In this document: positions 10,591 to 28,743 of the stretch, piece by piece
Numbering within the stretch: position 1 is the stretch's first letter
Layout of the letters: each line of letters starts with the position of its first letter
NCBI GenBank assembly: GCA_016192705.1
Contig: JACPTQ010000016.1
Span: 1 to 40,053, forward strand
Length of the DNA: 40,053 bases
Direction of reading: 5' to 3'
Origin: Deltaproteobacteria bacterium
GTDB taxonomy: Bacteria > Myxococcota > JACPTQ01
Translations under genes and position numbers: made by a program
Notes under the pieces: generated by a model
Told to the model about the DNA's origin: nothing
Database searches by the model: none
The model's input: only the letters and a program-made list of their open reading frames with translations

Positions 10591-11895
10591 GTGCCTGAAA
10601 ACCATCTCAATCTCACCGCTCACTTGGGTGCGCCGCCTGATGCCACGATAACCGCTCTCGTCGCGACGGCAAGCCCGGTTGTTCTCGCGGATTTTATGAT
10701 CCGTCTCGCCGATCGGTTGGGTGCGCACGGTTTTCAAGTGGAGCGTGAGGGCGCCCTGCCGTATGTTGTGTTGCACACCAACGGAACGATTTGCGCGCGA
10801 ATCCCGATTCCGCACATCTCCGCCGATGCTGTCATCGCGCGGTTCGCCTTCATCGCCAAGGTCGATCTCACATCCCCCGAAGAACAGGATCGACGCGTCG
10901 GGGTTCAGGTCCACGGTCGCCACCGCGAACTGTTCGTAACCTTTCAACCCGCGCAGGGTGGCCTTCAACTTGATGCGCGATTCCTCGACGCAACGGAGGT
11001 CCAAGCACCGGCGCCGCCCGATGCGGTTTCGCAGGCACAGCCGCTTCGCGTCCCGCGCTACACGATCCTCGGTGAAATTGGCCGAGGCGCGATGGGCATC
11101 GTTTATCGCGCGGAGCATGAGGCCCTCAAAAAGCAGGTTGCCATCAAGGTCCTCCACGTCGACCTCGCGAAAGACCCGGCGATCGCCGCTCGATTCGAAC
11201 GCGAAGGGATCGCCGCGAGTCGCGTGCGCCACGAGGGGATCGTCGAAATCAGTGACTACGGGCGGTTGGCGAGCGGCCAGTCGTTTTTGGTTATGGAGCT
11301 CCTCGAAGGGACCACCCTTGAACAAATCCTCGCGGACGGGGCGTTGCCTGTGCGCCGCGCCATCGACATCGCGATCAATATTGCGCGAGCGGTCGACGCG
11401 CTTCATCGGGCCGGTGTCGTTCACCGTGACCTTAAACCCGCGAACGTTTTTGTGCTCGAAGGCGATCGGATCAAGATCGTCGATTTTGGTGTGGCAAAAG
11501 TGGTTGGCGCATCGTCGACGGTCAACGAAACGGCTGCGGGCGCGGTCATCGGGACGCCGATGTACATGGCGCCAGAGCAGGTCGAAGGCCGACCAATTGA
11601 CCCCCGGATCGACATTTATGCGCTCGGGTGCACCCTTTATCGATTGCTGACGGGGCGCCCACCCTACGAAGGCGACAGCCAGATCGAAGTTTTGCAAAAG
11701 CACGTGGCGAGCCCGATCCCGACGGTTCAATCGCCCCACGGACCGCTGCCGACGCTGCTTGAGCGAATTGTTTCGCGTGCGATGGCCAAGCACCCCGATG
11801 GCCGCCACCAGTCGGTGCTTGAGCTCATTCGCGACCTCGAGCGTGCCGCCGAGGCGGTTTCGCGCACCGGGTGGAGGAGGTGGCTGCCGGTATGA
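10591..11895 (+). CDS. Ser/Thr protein kinase with GspE-like N-terminal domain
   Basis: 434 residues. The kinase domain (about 155-425) has the glycine loop GEIGRGAMG, K186 in VAIK, the catalytic loop HRDLKPAN (D280), DFG (D298) and an APE-type MAPEQ, so it should be active. It belongs to the bacterial PknB-like group. There is no transmembrane segment or PASTA domain. Residues of about 30-135 resemble the region just before the ATPase core of GspE/PilB-type secretion ATPases (RRVGVQVHGRHRELFVTF, then LDARFLD), an unusual fusion that I infer by eye only. The stop overlaps the start of a receiver gene (ATGA), suggesting a functional pair. Start is GTG at 10591. Confidence 0.9.
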   Translation: MPENHLNLTAHLGAPPDATITALVATASPVVLADFMIRLADRLGAHGFQVEREGALPYVVLHTNGTICARIPIPHISADAVIARFAFIAKVDLTSPEEQDRRVGVQVHGRHRELFVTFQPAQGGLQLDARFLDATEVQAPAPPDAVSQAQPLRVPRYTILGEIGRGAMGIVYRAEHEALKKQVAIKVLHVDLAKDPAIAARFEREGIAASRVRHEGIVEISDYGRLASGQSFLVMELLEGTTLEQILADGALPVRRAIDIAINIARAVDALHRAGVVHRDLKPANVFVLEGDRIKIVDFGVAKVVGASSTVNETAAGAVIGTPMYMAPEQVEGRPIDPRIDIYALGCTLYRLLTGRPPYEGDSQIEVLQKHVASPIPTVQSPHGPLPTLLERIVSRAMAKHPDGRHQSVLELIRDLERAAEAVSRTGWRRWLPV

Positions 11896-12452
11896 CCGCG
11901 GCTGGACCAACGCTCCTCCTGGTCGACGACGAGGCGGACGTCGTTGCGTCGCTTCGTCGCACACTCGCGCCGCTCCACCACCGAATTCTGACCACAACGG
12001 ATCCGACGCAAGTGCTGACGATCATCGCGAGCGATTCGGTCGACCTGCTGATTTCCGACATCGACATGGGCGAGGTGAGTGGGCTCGATGTTGTCGAAAA
12101 CGTGCGCGCTTGGTTTCCAGATGTGGTGCGGATCTTATTGACCGGGCGCGCCCGCGTCGAGGTTGCGCTTAAGGCGATCAACTCGGGTGAGGTGTTTCGT
12201 TTCCTCACCAAACCATGGGAGCCCGAGGAGCTTCGCCAAATCGTCGAGCTCGGACTTGCGCGTCGCGCGGAGCTTCGCGAGCAGAGTACGGCCGCACGTA
12301 CGGTCGAGCGACGGCGCCAGTTGGTTGCCGACCTTGAGGCCGAGTTCCCTGGGATTTCGAATGTCCGGCGGGTCGGGGGGTTGTACGTCGTCGACGAAAC
12401 CGCGTCGGAAGCGATGCTGCAGGCGTGGGCGGGCAGCGCCCACAAGATTTAG
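11892..12452 (+). CDS. RpfG/HupR-type receiver protein without known output domain
   Basis: A 186-residue protein. The receiver (about 6-125) has D12-D13, phospho-acceptor D56, T84 in ILLTGRA and K107 in FLTKPW; this FLTKPW form is typical of receivers in RpfG/HupR-type regulators. The last 60 residues begin with a coiled coil (ARRAELREQ) and end in an unassigned segment. The ATG overlaps the kinase stop codon, with a GGAGG-containing Shine-Dalgarno region upstream, and is preferred over an in-frame GTG at 11871. Its end overlaps the convergent histidine kinase by 3-4 nt. It could take phosphate from that kinase, or be a substrate of the Ser/Thr kinase. Confidence 0.85.
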   Translation: MTAAGPTLLLVDDEADVVASLRRTLAPLHHRILTTTDPTQVLTIIASDSVDLLISDIDMGEVSGLDVVENVRAWFPDVVRILLTGRARVEVALKAINSGEVFRFLTKPWEPEELRQIVELGLARRAELREQSTAARTVERRRQLVADLEAEFPGISNVRRVGGLYVVDETASEAMLQAWAGSAHKI

Positions 12453-13780
12453 CGCGCGAACGCTGGAATGCTCACGCGAAAGACGCTTCCGGTCGGGTTG
12501 TTGTCCTCAACCCAAATGCGCCCCCCGAGCGACTCTGTCGCAAGGCGGCAAAACGCGAGACCGAGCCCCCGGCTGCGACTCATGATGAGCGGGTCTTGCG
12601 ACGCGAGCCGAACGTAACGCTCGAAGATCCGCTCGCGGTGCTCAACCGGAATTCCCGGTCCTCGGTCGCGCACGCAAAGCTCAAACGCCGCGTCGCCGAT
12701 CGACGCCTCAATGCGGACTTCGTTCCCACTTTTCGTGTGCTTCAAGGCGTTCCCGGTCAGGTTCTCGACGATTCGCCGCACGAGCTCGCGGTCGGTCGCG
12801 ACCGTACGGTCGTCGGGTGCGTCGATCGTGATGTCGTTTCGCCGCGTGAGGTGTTGCTGCCGAACCGACTCGAGGACGGACCGGAGGTTAACCGCCGTGG
12901 GAACCGGAATAAGGGCGCCGTTTTCAGCTCGGCTGATGTCGAGAAGATTCGCGACCATGGCGCGCATCGCCGCAACCGAATCGTGCACAGCGACCGCCGC
13001 GTCGAGGAGGTCGCCCTTAAGCCCGGCAACGTCCGCGAGGTACTCGGCATTCCCCACGGCAACTGAAAGTTGATTGTTGATGTCGTGCACCAAGAACGCC
13101 ATCAGCTCCTCGCGCATGCGCGAAGCACTTGCTAGGTCTTCCTTCGCGGCTTCGGCCTCGCGCCGCGCCGTTTGCGCCTCGTCGCGCTCACGCAACAGTT
13201 CCGCCTCAAGGCGCTTTCGCTCCGAAATATCAGTCGTGACCCCGACCAATCTCGTCGGCTCGCCATTCTCGTTCCGCACGAGTTTCCCGCGCGTCCGAAC
13301 CCAAGCGATCGTTCCGTCGCGGCGCACGACGCGGTGTTCGTTGTCCCACTTCCCTCGCTCGGGGAGCGTCAGCTGATCCGCTTCGATCATTGGCCGATCG
13401 TCTGGGTGGATGCACTCGAGCCAGAGCATTGGGTTGAGCAGGAACGCCTCGCGCGGCCGCCCATAAATGCGTTCGAATCCAGGGCTCACAAACGTTCGTC
13501 CGCCCGGAACGATCGGCGCCGAAAAAATGGCGTCGTCGATGGTCGAGAGCATTTCGTTGAGCATCTTCGACATCGCCTGCTCGGCGTGCTGGGCCTCGGT
13601 GCGCTCGCGCCGTTGCCACTCTAAGTCTTCGTTCAGCATGAGGAGCGCGAAGAGCAATTCACGAACCGACGGATCCGCTTCGTTTTGGATCGACGCGTCG
13701 GTGATCGTGCACTCGCCTTGACTGATCGCGATGATCTCTTCGATCAGCCTCGACGCGTTTGAGGACGGATCAGGCTCCAC
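12449..13780 (-). CDS. PAS sensor histidine kinase of the H-NOX operon
   Basis: About 444 residues, cytoplasmic. After an N-terminal helical region comes one PAS domain with a PAC tail (about 85-195, ending VGVTTDISERK), a coiled coil, a HisKA-type domain with H232 in FLVHDINNQL, and HATPase_c with N box (ENLTGNALKHT), G1 (DRGPGIP) and G2 (RGLGLAF). It is the third gene of the H-NOX operon and overlaps the STAS-like gene. H-NOX proteins commonly regulate an adjacent histidine kinase, so this is the probable target. The start is uncertain: GTG at 13780 gives a short overlap, while an ATG at 13837 would give 68 nt. Confidence 0.85.
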   Translation of the reverse strand: MEPDPSSNASRLIEEIIAISQGECTITDASIQNEADPSVRELLFALLMLNEDLEWQRRERTEAQHAEQAMSKMLNEMLSTIDDAIFSAPIVPGGRTFVSPGFERIYGRPREAFLLNPMLWLECIHPDDRPMIEADQLTLPERGKWDNEHRVVRRDGTIAWVRTRGKLVRNENGEPTRLVGVTTDISERKRLEAELLRERDEAQTARREAEAAKEDLASASRMREELMAFLVHDINNQLSVAVGNAEYLADVAGLKGDLLDAAVAVHDSVAAMRAMVANLLDISRAENGALIPVPTAVNLRSVLESVRQQHLTRRNDITIDAPDDRTVATDRELVRRIVENLTGNALKHTKSGNEVRIEASIGDAAFELCVRDRGPGIPVEHRERIFERYVRLASQDPLIMSRSRGLGLAFCRLATESLGGRIWVEDNNPTGSVFRVSIPAFAR

Positions 13781-14222
13781 GGACTTCCACGGCCCCCTTA
13801 CCTTTCGCCATATGAATCGCCGCGATCGCGTCGTCACGGTGACGGTGTACCGAAAAGTCCTTCATTCCCGCGGAGGCCATGACGAACCGAGCGGCGACGT
13901 TGAGGACGAAATTCGCCTCGGTGAAAAGCGCGGTGTAGGCCGGTCGTCGGTGTGTCGTCATAAGAACGCGAAGATGAAAACGGACGTCTGCGGGCGGGCG
14001 CGAGGCGTGAGTCAAGTCGATGAGCGCATAATAATTCGGCAGCGCGGCGGTCAGCTCGGCCATGCGCCCCCACATCACATCGAGTTGAAACGGCGTTTGG
14101 ATGGGCGCCTCACGGTACAAAACGACGTCCGGCTCGAACAGCGTGATTCGCGCTCGAAGCGTCTCGCGCTCCTCGTCGGTCGAGTCTGGGCCATAGGCTC
14201 GTGCCTCTATTTCACGCGCCAC
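13770..14222 (-). CDS. STAS/SpoIIAA-like protein between H-NOX and kinase
   Basis: A 150-residue protein with alternating strands and helices. The segment YYALIDLTHASRPP, followed by a helix and YTALFTEANF and ending in a DDAIAAI helix, resembles SpoIIAA-like (STAS-superfamily) domains that mediate protein contacts. I infer this from pattern only. The start is set by GGAGG five nt before a GTG at 14222, which lies inside the end of the H-NOX gene; its stop lies inside the start of the kinase gene. This double overlap places it as an adaptor between haem sensor and kinase. Alternatively it may be an independent anti-anti-sigma-like factor. Confidence 0.72.
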   Translation of the reverse strand: MAREIEARAYGPDSTDEERETLRARITLFEPDVVLYREAPIQTPFQLDVMWGRMAELTAALPNYYALIDLTHASRPPADVRFHLRVLMTTHRRPAYTALFTEANFVLNVAARFVMASAGMKDFSVHRHRDDAIAAIHMAKGKGAVEVRGA

Positions 14223-14775
14223 GCTCGCCTCCGCGACGCGGTTCGAACGTGCATTCGAGCACGCAGCGGTCGTCGCCGCGGAGCATGCAGGTCGGGTGAA
14301 CGATCGTCGCATCTTCGCCAAAATGGCTGGCGGCTCCCGCAATGAAACCCTCTGCAAGCGCGCAGAGGCGGCGCGCCGACCGGTACGCAAGCACAACGCG
14401 ATTCGGAGTCGATTCGAGAAAGTCAAACGTTGGGAGGTCGGCGTCGGGATAAATCTTTCGAACGTCAGCGTGGATGGCGTCGTTGATCGTCAGCATAAAA
14501 GTCGATGTCGATTTGTGGGGGGCAAAAAAATGGGAGTAGCGCGTCGACAAATGCGAGATCGCCTCGCGGCCGAACCAGCGCAGGACGTCGGCGACGGAAG
14601 TGTTGAGAAGATGCGCGGCGGCGCCGACGAACTGGATCATTTCAGAGTCGGGATAGTTCCCTGCGGCCGCGTAGGGTCGGGCGAGCCCCGTTTGTGTAAC
14701 GAGTGCTTTCCAGGTTTTTGGTCCATGCGCTTTTATAACCGCGTGTTCCAAAAGATTAAAGATAATCCCCTTCAT
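14212..14775 (-). CDS. hnoX: H-NOX (haem NO-binding) sensor protein
   Basis: A 187-residue protein that begins with the typical MKGIIFNLLE. The canonical H-NOX residues fall at their canonical numbers: proximal haem ligand H102 (NDAIHADV), P115 in DLPTF, and the propionate-binding Y131-x-S133-x-R135 motif. Residue 140, the distal Tyr of oxygen-binding H-NOX proteins, is Leu, so selectivity for NO over O2 is predicted. The C-terminus (HPTC, RGDDRCVLEC) has several Cys residues, as in some H-NOX and V4R-like domains. It is stand-alone and cytoplasmic, and first in an overlapping operon with a STAS-like protein and a PAS kinase. AGGAG lies close upstream of the ATG. Confidence 0.9.
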   Translation of the reverse strand: MKGIIFNLLEHAVIKAHGPKTWKALVTQTGLARPYAAAGNYPDSEMIQFVGAAAHLLNTSVADVLRWFGREAISHLSTRYSHFFAPHKSTSTFMLTINDAIHADVRKIYPDADLPTFDFLESTPNRVVLAYRSARRLCALAEGFIAGAASHFGEDATIVHPTCMLRGDDRCVLECTFEPRRGGERGA

Positions 14776-14889
14776 CTTCTCCTCATCATGGTGCGACGGT
14801 CAGGATCTAAAACCTGGCCTGCGCAAAAATTGCAATATTGATGTCTGCTCCGAGTGTGCCCAAAACACTGGAGGGATTCAAGTCATGCT

Positions 14890-25288: not shown

Positions 25289-26562
25289 CGGATCACCGTC
25301 ACGACTCCGTTTTTGCAGCTCGCGACCATTTGCCGAGCTTGGTCAAAAACGTAGAGTTGGGAGACGCCGCTCGGCCTTAGAATGTTAAACAGCGCTCCGA
25401 CCTTTTCTTGCTTTCGTGCGAAGGGAATGTCAGGCCATTCGACGCGCACGACGACATCCGCCACGTCACGGATTTTCGTTGCCGATTGAATCGGCAGAAC
25501 TTGCGTGAACTGCTTGGCGTCGAACTCAGCGAAGTCCGGCGCGCGATCGCGATAGTGCGCCGCGATCTGGTGATCCAGCACAAAGTAGAGAATCGAACTG
25601 ATGAGCATGAGAAGCGTTGAGGCAAACACGACGAGTTTTCCAACGGTCGTTCGTTCGATCCTCCTGTTTGACTCTTGGCGGGCTCGTTTGGTTCGTGCGG
25701 ATCGCGTGGCCGATTTTGTTTCGACGTTCGGTGCCACGCTCTCGTCGTCGGCTGCGGGCGGCATCTCGGCGTCGAGGAACCACACGTTGTTCTCGCTGAA
25801 AAATGCAACTTCGGCGGCGGATCCAAACGGATTGGTGAGCTCGCGGCCGTCGCCATTCGTGACGTCGCCGGCGATCTCGCTTTGTACATGTGCGATGAAG
25901 GCTCGAAGCTCGGCCGCCGTCGCGAAAAGCTTGGCGCGCGTGGTGGAGAGGTTTCGAAGCCCAGCGACGTTGACCTTTCGAATGAGGTCGTTGGCGACCG
26001 CCTGGGCCATCGCGAGTGTTTTCGATGTCTCGTCTAGGTACGCCATCGACAACCGCATGGCCGCGTCCCGTCCGACCTCGCGGCGGCGCGACGCGTCGAA
26101 TGTGATGATGCGCAGGCGTTCCGCGACCATCGTGCGGATGCACGCGTCTGCGTCGGTTTCGCCCGAACGAAACGCCTCGATCTCCCACACATCAAGGTGT
26201 GGCACATGTGGCGCGAGATCGTTGTCGAGGCTTCTCGGCGCGGGGCGGGCGGCCGGTGCTTCGAGCAGACGCTTTAACGCCTCGATGATTCCCGCGGTCG
26301 TTTCCAAGTGGGCGCCCGCGGCTTCGTCACACACAACAAATTCGTCATCGACGATCCACGGCTCCGACGCGCTCACGATGGGCCTCGACCCGAACACCGG
26401 GCATTCCCACGCCGAGGCCACACGCACCTCCCAGGGCGCGACGGCGGGCCTAACGATCACCGTCGGTATGTCAGCGGTTTGACGAACAGAGAGGAAAGCC
26501 GCATCGAGAGACTGCTCAACTTCCGACGGCTCAAAGAAGCTTCGTGACCATGTTGCAATCAT
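25285..26562 (-). CDS. bitopic membrane protein of unknown function in the pseudopilin operon
   Basis: 425 residues. A soluble, mainly helical region of about 320 residues comes first, without a signal peptide. An Arg/Lys-rich stretch (ARTKRARQESNRRIERTT) precedes a single TM segment at about 325-345 (LVVFASTLLMLISSILYFV). The last 80 residues (HYRDRAPDFAEFD onward, with a beta-rich end) would lie in the periplasm. The topology is like PilN- or GspL/GspM-type assembly proteins, but I recognise no domain. It has ATGA overlaps with both neighbours. A role in linking the cytoplasmic MshEN/HD-GYP protein to the pseudopilin is plausible and unproven. Confidence 0.75.
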   Translation of the reverse strand: MIATWSRSFFEPSEVEQSLDAAFLSVRQTADIPTVIVRPAVAPWEVRVASAWECPVFGSRPIVSASEPWIVDDEFVVCDEAAGAHLETTAGIIEALKRLLEAPAARPAPRSLDNDLAPHVPHLDVWEIEAFRSGETDADACIRTMVAERLRIITFDASRRREVGRDAAMRLSMAYLDETSKTLAMAQAVANDLIRKVNVAGLRNLSTTRAKLFATAAELRAFIAHVQSEIAGDVTNGDGRELTNPFGSAAEVAFFSENNVWFLDAEMPPAADDESVAPNVETKSATRSARTKRARQESNRRIERTTVGKLVVFASTLLMLISSILYFVLDHQIAAHYRDRAPDFAEFDAKQFTQVLPIQSATKIRDVADVVVRVEWPDIPFARKQEKVGALFNILRPSGVSQLYVFDQARQMVASCKNGVVTVIR

Positions 26563-28457
26563 GGATGCACCCCCACGTCGGGATCGAACGCGAATTCACC
26601 ATCGTTCCATCCGACGATCGACTTGAACGCGTCCTCGCCGCGTCGGTCGTTTGAAATCGCGTCGACGACGGCCCCATGATCGAGTGTGATGACGCCTTGG
26701 TTGACTCCGGTCTTGACGAGAAGTTGCCCGCTTTTCTTCGCTTGAGCGAGAAGGTGGATGACATCGGGGATTGTAATATCGGCAACTGTTCCAACAATCC
26801 CGTGACCCTTCGAAAGCAGCGCCGTCGGATGGTTTTTTGTTTCGACGATTTGCTGCACCTTGGCGACAAGGACTTCGGGAAGGACCGGCTTGACCAGGTA
26901 GTCGATTGCGCCCAAGGCGTACGCGTGACGGATGAAGATCGCGTCGGAAACGTGTGAATGGAAGATGAACGGGGTTTTCGTGCCGCGTTGAATGCGCCGC
27001 AATTCGAGCAAAAGATCGAAGCCATCTTCGGGCGTGTCGTTGACTTCACTGACGATGACATCGAAATTACGTTCACGAAGTTGGCGTCTGGCCGCGGTCG
27101 ACGAGGTGCAGACGACGACGTTGAATCCGCATCGCGCGAGCTCGATCTCGTGTTCTGAAACGTCTTTTGCAACCGGGTCAACGAGCAGAACCCAAGGTCG
27201 CGTTGCGTCGAGCCGTTTGCGGTTTTCGTCCAGCGTCACGATTTTCGAAAGTGCACGGACGACGTCGGGATCGAACAGAATTTCGGCGTATTTGCTGACG
27301 ATTTCGAGGGCGTCCGTCGGCGCTTGGACGACGCCGGAGTAGTTTTCGGCGTTGAGTGTGAGGTCGAGGCACGCGTCAACGGCGGCGACGATGCGCGCGC
27401 CCTCTGGGATTGCGGGACCTGCGAGGCCGCCCGGAAAGCCGGAGCCATCGAAGTGCTCGTAGATGTGGATGAGCGCGTCGCGAACCGGTTTGGGTAAGTG
27501 CGCGCGGAAGAACATGTTCGACGGGATGAGGTATTGATCGCGCGCGACTTCGGCGTGCTGCGCGTTGTGTCGCATCGAAAGAAGCGTGTGGTGCGCGCTT
27601 CGTTTGCCGACGTCGTGGAGGTAGGCGGCAAGGGCCACATACCGGACGCGCGTTTCGGTGAACCCCAACTTCTCGGCGACGCGTGAGGAAAGATGCGCGA
27701 CCTCGGTCGAGTGTCCGCTGAATCGGTCGGCCGAGAATTCAGGGCGGGAGCGCATGATGACGTCGAGGAATTCGACAACATCGATCTCTTCCGCTGGTGT
27801 ATCGGGTGTGTCGCGAATGATCGATGCGTACGGCTCGTCCGCGGGCTGCGGGATTTGCGGTGGCTCGTTTGGCGGCGCTGGCATTTGCTGGACTTGGGTC
27901 TGCTCGTCGTCGCACTCCCAGCTGTACGCAACGAGGAGAGTCGCGATGTTGGCGCGGATTTTTACATCGAGGCCATCAAACGCGCATGCGTCGCCGTCGT
28001 ACACCTTTCGGAGGGCGGCATCGATGACACACCGGAGCGCGGCGACGGGGCTCGTCGTGGCAAGCGGCTCAGCCGCGTGAAGTTCCGGCAGGTTCGGTTC
28101 GACTGGGGTCCACGACGCGAACGAGAGGACGCGTTTGTCGGCGTCGAACGAAAGCGGGAGAACGCCTGCTCTTTTGGCGCTCTTCGCGGGAACCAGTTTG
28201 ATCAGTTCCGGCGACGGCCAGAATTCCGCGAGCCGCTTGCTGGTGATGTAGCGGCCGACCCCCTGTCGGAGGCGCGATCGGAAACCGCGCTGCGCGATGT
28301 GCTTAAGCATCGCGGATTCGGCGATGAGGTCGTTCTCGACGACGACGTCGGCGAGCGGCCGTCGTTCGCGGGATGCTTGTTCTAAGGCGGAGTCGATTTC
28401 TGATTGACCGACAAGTTGGTCGGCCACAAGCCACGCGGCCAATCGCGAATCGTTCAT
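26559..28457 (-). CDS. MshEN - HD-GYP-like - receiver-like - DUF4388 protein
   Basis: 632 residues, cytoplasmic. The N-terminus (about 5-155) matches the MshEN/GspE N1 domain (LVADQLVGQSEIDSAL, RRPLADVVVENDLI), which binds cyclic di-GMP in MshE. A Pro/Glu linker follows. Residues of about 225-400 are HD-GYP-like: H249, H281-D282 (YLHDVGK), but the HHExxDGxGYP signature is YEHFDGSGFP, so a metal-binding His pair is lost. A receiver-like domain (about 422-535) has E471 in place of the phospho-Asp and keeps K523. The end (about 552-630) is DUF4388/PATAN. I infer an effector or scaffold more than an active phosphodiesterase. Start at 28457 has GGGGGGA upstream. Confidence 0.82.
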   Translation of the reverse strand: MNDSRLAAWLVADQLVGQSEIDSALEQASRERRPLADVVVENDLIAESAMLKHIAQRGFRSRLRQGVGRYITSKRLAEFWPSPELIKLVPAKSAKRAGVLPLSFDADKRVLSFASWTPVEPNLPELHAAEPLATTSPVAALRCVIDAALRKVYDGDACAFDGLDVKIRANIATLLVAYSWECDDEQTQVQQMPAPPNEPPQIPQPADEPYASIIRDTPDTPAEEIDVVEFLDVIMRSRPEFSADRFSGHSTEVAHLSSRVAEKLGFTETRVRYVALAAYLHDVGKRSAHHTLLSMRHNAQHAEVARDQYLIPSNMFFRAHLPKPVRDALIHIYEHFDGSGFPGGLAGPAIPEGARIVAAVDACLDLTLNAENYSGVVQAPTDALEIVSKYAEILFDPDVVRALSKIVTLDENRKRLDATRPWVLLVDPVAKDVSEHEIELARCGFNVVVCTSSTAARRQLRERNFDVIVSEVNDTPEDGFDLLLELRRIQRGTKTPFIFHSHVSDAIFIRHAYALGAIDYLVKPVLPEVLVAKVQQIVETKNHPTALLSKGHGIVGTVADITIPDVIHLLAQAKKSGQLLVKTGVNQGVITLDHGAVVDAISNDRRGEDAFKSIVGWNDGEFAFDPDVGVHP

Positions 28458-28743
28458 TGTCCCCCCGATCGGCAAACGACGTTCGAGAAGGCGAGAGGCA
28501 ACTCGCGTGCCGTTATCAACGCGCATAGATAATCGAACCAGCGGCTCTGGTTTTCGTCGCCTCCCGAGTAAAGGCCACCGTCGCTCGTTCAAAATGAACG
28601 GGTCATCTTGAATGCTCTGACTGTTTTAGTGTGTGAGGCGGTAGGTGGAAAGCTCAGTGTTGTGACGCCGTAAAAGATTCCGGCCGCAGCGGATTGTGTC
28701 CGGCTTGACAGGAGCGACATGAATCGGTCGGATCGCGCGAGGG

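Follow-up and report, generated by a model that had tools for sequence, protein, structure and literature searches.

The window, by which we mean the whole 40,053-nucleotide stretch of DNA analysed, carries a minus-strand array in which the gene of an H-NOX haem sensor precedes the genes of a small protein with a predicted STAS fold (STASL) and of a histidine kinase. Comparison with other genomes indicated that the STASL/kinase pair is the conserved unit and that the H-NOX is a local addition. Judging from gene order and overlaps, we give slightly better than even odds (a probability of roughly 0.55) to the reading that the H-NOX was wired upstream into a pre-existing module of STASL and an HKN-PAS-histidine kinase, where HKN is our name for the first ~60 residues of the window kinase (residues about 10-70).

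The H-NOX array and its neighbours

The genes of the array follow each other in the order H-NOX (14212-14775, 187 aa), STASL (13770-14222, 150 aa) and kinase (12449-13780, 443 aa). The initial annotation had described three overlapping minus-strand genes, and the overlaps were confirmed, with 11 nt shared at each junction (GTGGCGCGTGA and GTGGAGCCTGA). Both the STASL and the kinase gene start with GTG, placed 11 nt inside the preceding gene, and just 5ʹ of each of these codons there is a purine-rich, Shine-Dalgarno-like stretch (GGAGG for STASL and AAGGGGG for the kinase), which is plausibly a ribosome-binding site. Since a family match or homologues exist for each of the proteins, the genes of the array are not chance open frames. 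Searches of the window's own genome gave one match apiece for the H-NOX, the STASL gene and the HKN domain, and these sole matches sit together in the one operon-like array. The scan of the operon for sigma-70-type promoters predicted none. We also noticed, upstream of the H-NOX (14845-14870), a GGCAC-N7-GCA sequence which by eye resembles a sigma-54 -24/-12 element (GG-N10-GC), with several mismatches.

The H-NOX scored 126.7 bits against the HNOB profile PF07700 (cut-off 25.5), and among solved structures its nearest relatives by sequence were of the H-NOX family, 4u9b and 2kii among them. The haem-pocket residues were found at exactly the positions first assigned to them: the proximal histidine H102, P115, the Y-x-S-x-R motif (Y131, S133, R135) and L140, which does replace the distal tyrosine. 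The distal pocket (L9, S74, L140) holds neither Tyr nor other hydrogen-bond donors, as in NO-type and not O2-type proteins. Judged from these residues, NO sensing by the H-NOX is likely but not certain; its NO selectivity stays a prediction because the residues of a Cys3His zinc site (C138, H160, C163 and C171) are also kept. In the tree, the window H-NOX grouped with H-NOX proteins from several phyla (local support 0.81-0.92), and the neighbours encoded in that clade were mostly coiled-coil GAF kinases or GGDEF proteins; no recognised kinase adjoins its nearest single relative (L002). Two MAG contigs (L010 and L014), with Bifidobacterium breve and Klebsiella pneumoniae in their titles, carry H-NOX/GAF-partner operons unlike those species and are probably mislabelled bins.

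A receiver gene and a Ser/Thr kinase gene had both been described as converging on the array. The gene convergent with the histidine kinase is that of the response-regulator receiver (11871-12452, plus strand, 193 aa, probable ATG start at 11892; PF00072, 72.5 bits), which ends 4 nt inside the 3ʹ end of the histidine kinase gene. The Ser/Thr kinase gene (10591-11895, plus strand; PF00069, 166.7 bits) overlaps the receiver by ATGA, and its membership of the system is uncertain. From proximity alone, the receiver is possibly the phosphate acceptor of the window kinase. The NosR-family model NF053512 reached 131 bits with this protein against a cut-off of 400, covering the receiver and linker only, and was rejected as evidence of a c-di-GMP output. 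Elsewhere in the window (26559-28592) there is a 677-aa protein with MshEN, HD_5, receiver and DUF4388 domains.

STASL, HKN and their distribution

The sequence of STASL matched no Pfam family at E<10, including PF01740, PF11964 and DUF7793, and the possibility that STASL belongs to a known Pfam family was discarded on this ground; searches of PDB sequences and of plasmids also gave no match. A weak, indirect link was provided by its own profile, which found a PF11964 protein at E 0.0036. The AlphaFold model based on 19 homologues had a pLDDT of 92.1 and a pTM of 0.85, with structural elements in the order a-b-b-a-b-a-b-a-b-a; it superseded a model from a two-sequence alignment, discarded for its pLDDT of 58 and meaningless fold matches. 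In the Foldseek search with the 19-sequence model, the best matches were almost all STAS domains (best E 2.2e-3, probability up to 1.00), with 4xs5, 2q3l, RsbS 6jhk, the stressosome 6qcm and SpoIIAA 1th8 as top PDB entries, and the list comprised a Dyadobacter STAS protein, a SpoIIAA-like protein (2q3l), RsbS of B. subtilis, the Listeria stressosome and SpoIIAA. Because the list is consistent, we regard the assignment of the modelled protein to the STAS fold as safe despite the modest E-values, in agreement with the earlier guess of a STAS/SpoIIAA-like middle protein. S73, the equivalence of which to the phospho-Ser of SpoIIAA/RsbS was judged from topology and not from superposition, is Ser in 2 of the 19 homologues. 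In a second architecture, STASL forms the C-terminal domain of proteins (L088:1941-3413, L120:8065-9651, L128:4478-6019 and L132:4926-6419) which, where scanned (L088, L120, L128), are Ser/Thr protein kinases, and some of these adjoin a stand-alone STASL gene.

The window kinase contains the Pfam domains PAS_3, HisKA and HATPase_c, and its catalytic motifs are intact, with H232 as the H-box histidine. The HKN domain (13571-13753, minus strand), with 17 homologues, is fused either to histidine kinases, which may have PAS, GAF or REC domains or lack all three, or to an RsbR-type STAS domain (PF01740), with which the protein ends at L085, L124, L127 and L131. A cysteine (C24 in the window kinase, 13709-13711), located in a G-x-C-S-I connector, is kept in 16 of the 17 members and may possibly serve as a redox, metal or dimer contact. 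By eye, HKN, with two helices joined by a G-x-C connector, is reminiscent of HAMP, but the Pfam HAMP model did not match it.

HKN and STASL were sought by separate searches, and 16 of the 17 HKN genes turned out to adjoin a STASL gene. The HKN gene usually comes immediately downstream of STASL, mostly overlapping it, with the order reversed at L123 and a convergent arrangement at L119. In the phylum of the window, STASL homologues were present in 2 of 195 genomes, its own included, and a single-sequence search with HKN found the same two. Another H-NOX locus led to the genome G436; in the class to which this belongs, STASL homologues were found in 22 of 318 genomes and the HKN profile matched 14 of 308. 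Ten of the 14 HKN loci of this class were used to build the HKN model; at the four loci independent of it, STASL was present three times and absent once (L174 of G252). The closest relatives searched share the phylum of the window, with no other genome of its class among them, and the initial filters of the searches may overlook distant STASL members; several loci sit on short contigs. At one locus (L123:4185-6201), we noticed a tight order of HKN kinase, STASL and a receiver-like frame, which suggests that a receiver can be part of the STASL/HKN module.

H-NOX genes are common in these groups (26/195 genomes of the phylum and 79/318 of the G436 class). Neither STASL nor HKN was found in any of the 99 H-NOX loci scanned, no H-NOX adjoins HKN/STASL at any of the other loci found, and by the listed coordinates no contig of the G436 class is shared by a STASL match and an H-NOX match. 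In G025, where the only other STASL/HKN pair of the phylum was found, the H-NOX lies on a separate contig with its own kinase. A second H-NOX of this genome (L074, G025:C1126:11703-12182) has an in-frame TAG and represents either a decayed gene or a sequencing error. Among the genomes sampled, the full trio is present in the window only, and we rejected it as a conserved system. The initial annotation had proposed a three-part relay that might be new, to be checked by conservation of the trio across genomes. As to novelty, the open-licence papers searched yielded none on an H-NOX partnered by a SpoIIAA-like/STAS gene, nor on an H-NOX/STAS-like/kinase trio; conservation did not hold, as the pair recurs without the H-NOX. 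Since the trio is known from one genome, conservation offers no support for communication between the H-NOX and the pair.

Proposed wiring and competing explanations

We predict with good confidence that the H-NOX regulates the window kinase, and with less that STASL binds HKN; the further prediction that STASL is an obligatory link between the two is a tentative one. In the mechanism we propose, STASL would dock on HKN, the sole part common to its varied partners, and set the state of the kinase. The NO-bound or cysteine-oxidised H-NOX would bind STASL and/or the HKN-PAS region and alter autophosphorylation at H232, most likely by inhibition, the pattern set by other H-NOX/kinase pairs. Where an H-NOX lacks the distal Tyr, it controls the kinase next to it and, once NO is bound, usually inhibits autophosphorylation (PMC8738867, PMC12329717). 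The phosphate would then go to a receiver, possibly the product of the convergent gene at 11871-12452. A more far-reaching proposal, which we consider doubtful, is that STASL and HKN form an adaptor/receptor pair, in which the STAS-fold protein docks on a HAMP-like, Cys-bearing domain able to drive histidine kinase or RsbR-type STAS outputs, and that the haem NO/redox sensor works via STASL in a true three-part relay.

Alternatively, the array may contain an ordinary H-NOX/histidine-kinase pair, with direct binding of the H-NOX to the kinase; STASL would then co-regulate the kinase independently and have no part in relaying the haem signal. For the characterised bacterial H-NOX proteins, the partner kinase or cyclase is indeed a direct target (PMC8738867), and elsewhere STASL/HKN evidently works without any H-NOX. 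However, the window kinase is unlike the kinases beside related H-NOX genes, therefore the surface for direct binding would be new, and the STASL gene sits between those of the H-NOX and the kinase, overlapping both; we find direct pairing rather unlikely. It is unlikely also that the system is chiefly a thiol-redox or oxidant sensor, in which the signal would be oxidation of the H-NOX zinc-site cysteines, perhaps together with the HKN cysteine, and not NO. Such a sensor would suit the presence of all four zinc-site residues and the near-invariance of the HKN cysteine, and it has a precedent in the Caulobacter H-NOX, which is activated by oxidation of the equivalent site and not by NO, NO having no action on the kinase (PMC12329717). 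The same zinc site, however, is conserved across most aligned H-NOX relatives, including lineages with NO-responsive members, and the haem motif of the window H-NOX is fully intact. That the H-NOX was inserted or rearranged upstream by chance and shares no more than a transcript with the STASL/kinase pair would be in keeping with a trio confined to a single genome, but we consider it improbable in view of the 11-nt overlap preserved with its ribosome-binding site, the common strand, the intact pocket residues and the gathering of the genome's only H-NOX, STASL and HKN matches in one array.

In the preferred reading, the H-NOX feeds into a STASL/HKN-kinase module that already existed. The module itself appears to be undescribed in the open-licence papers searched, and the position of the H-NOX before the STASL/kinase unit suggests a new way of wiring NO or oxidant sensing to a kinase. 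An H-NOX obliged to act via a STAS-fold protein, or in competition with it, would join two large fields of signalling, that of H-NOX and that of the stressosome/STAS family. As a module that keeps recurring, the STASL/HKN pair can itself be tested: it combines a single small protein with a conserved domain, the candidate docking site, and with outputs that can be exchanged.

Comparison with known systems

In its fold, STASL resembles the SpoIIAA-like family PF11964 (PDB 2q3l; Foldseek probability 1.00, TM 0.57/0.66, rmsd 3.1 Å); it differs in that its sequence matches neither PF11964 nor DUF7793 even at E 10 and in having HKN as a constant partner. With the H-NOX/HnoK (and H-NOX/diguanylate cyclase) pairs, such as those of Shewanella, Vibrio and Caulobacter, the window shares a stand-alone H-NOX lacking the distal Tyr near a histidine kinase, and also the Cys3His zinc site. 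In contrast to those pairs, the kinase gene comes third in the window and STASL is directly next to the H-NOX; also, where the nearest H-NOX relatives have a coiled-coil GAF kinase or a GGDEF protein as neighbour, the window has an HKN-PAS kinase.

The combination of a haem sensor, a small STAS protein and a kinase as a relay is reminiscent of the RsbR/RsbS/RsbT stressosome, which in Vibrio includes a haem-globin, O2-sensing version (PMC4976288), and some relatives have, next to the small STAS-like protein, an HKN protein with an RsbR-like STAS domain at its end. In the window, however, the sensor that carries the haem motif is an H-NOX encoded by a gene of its own, a histidine kinase (HisKA/HATPase_c) and not the Ser/Thr kinase RsbT provides the output, Ser opens the helix that follows strand 3, a position assigned by topology, in just 2/19 STASL homologues, and no RsbR-STAS gene was found among the window genes scanned. 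With the defining features of neither system fully present, the system of the window may be regarded, by analogy, as a cross between the H-NOX/HnoK pair and the logic of the haem-globin stressosome.
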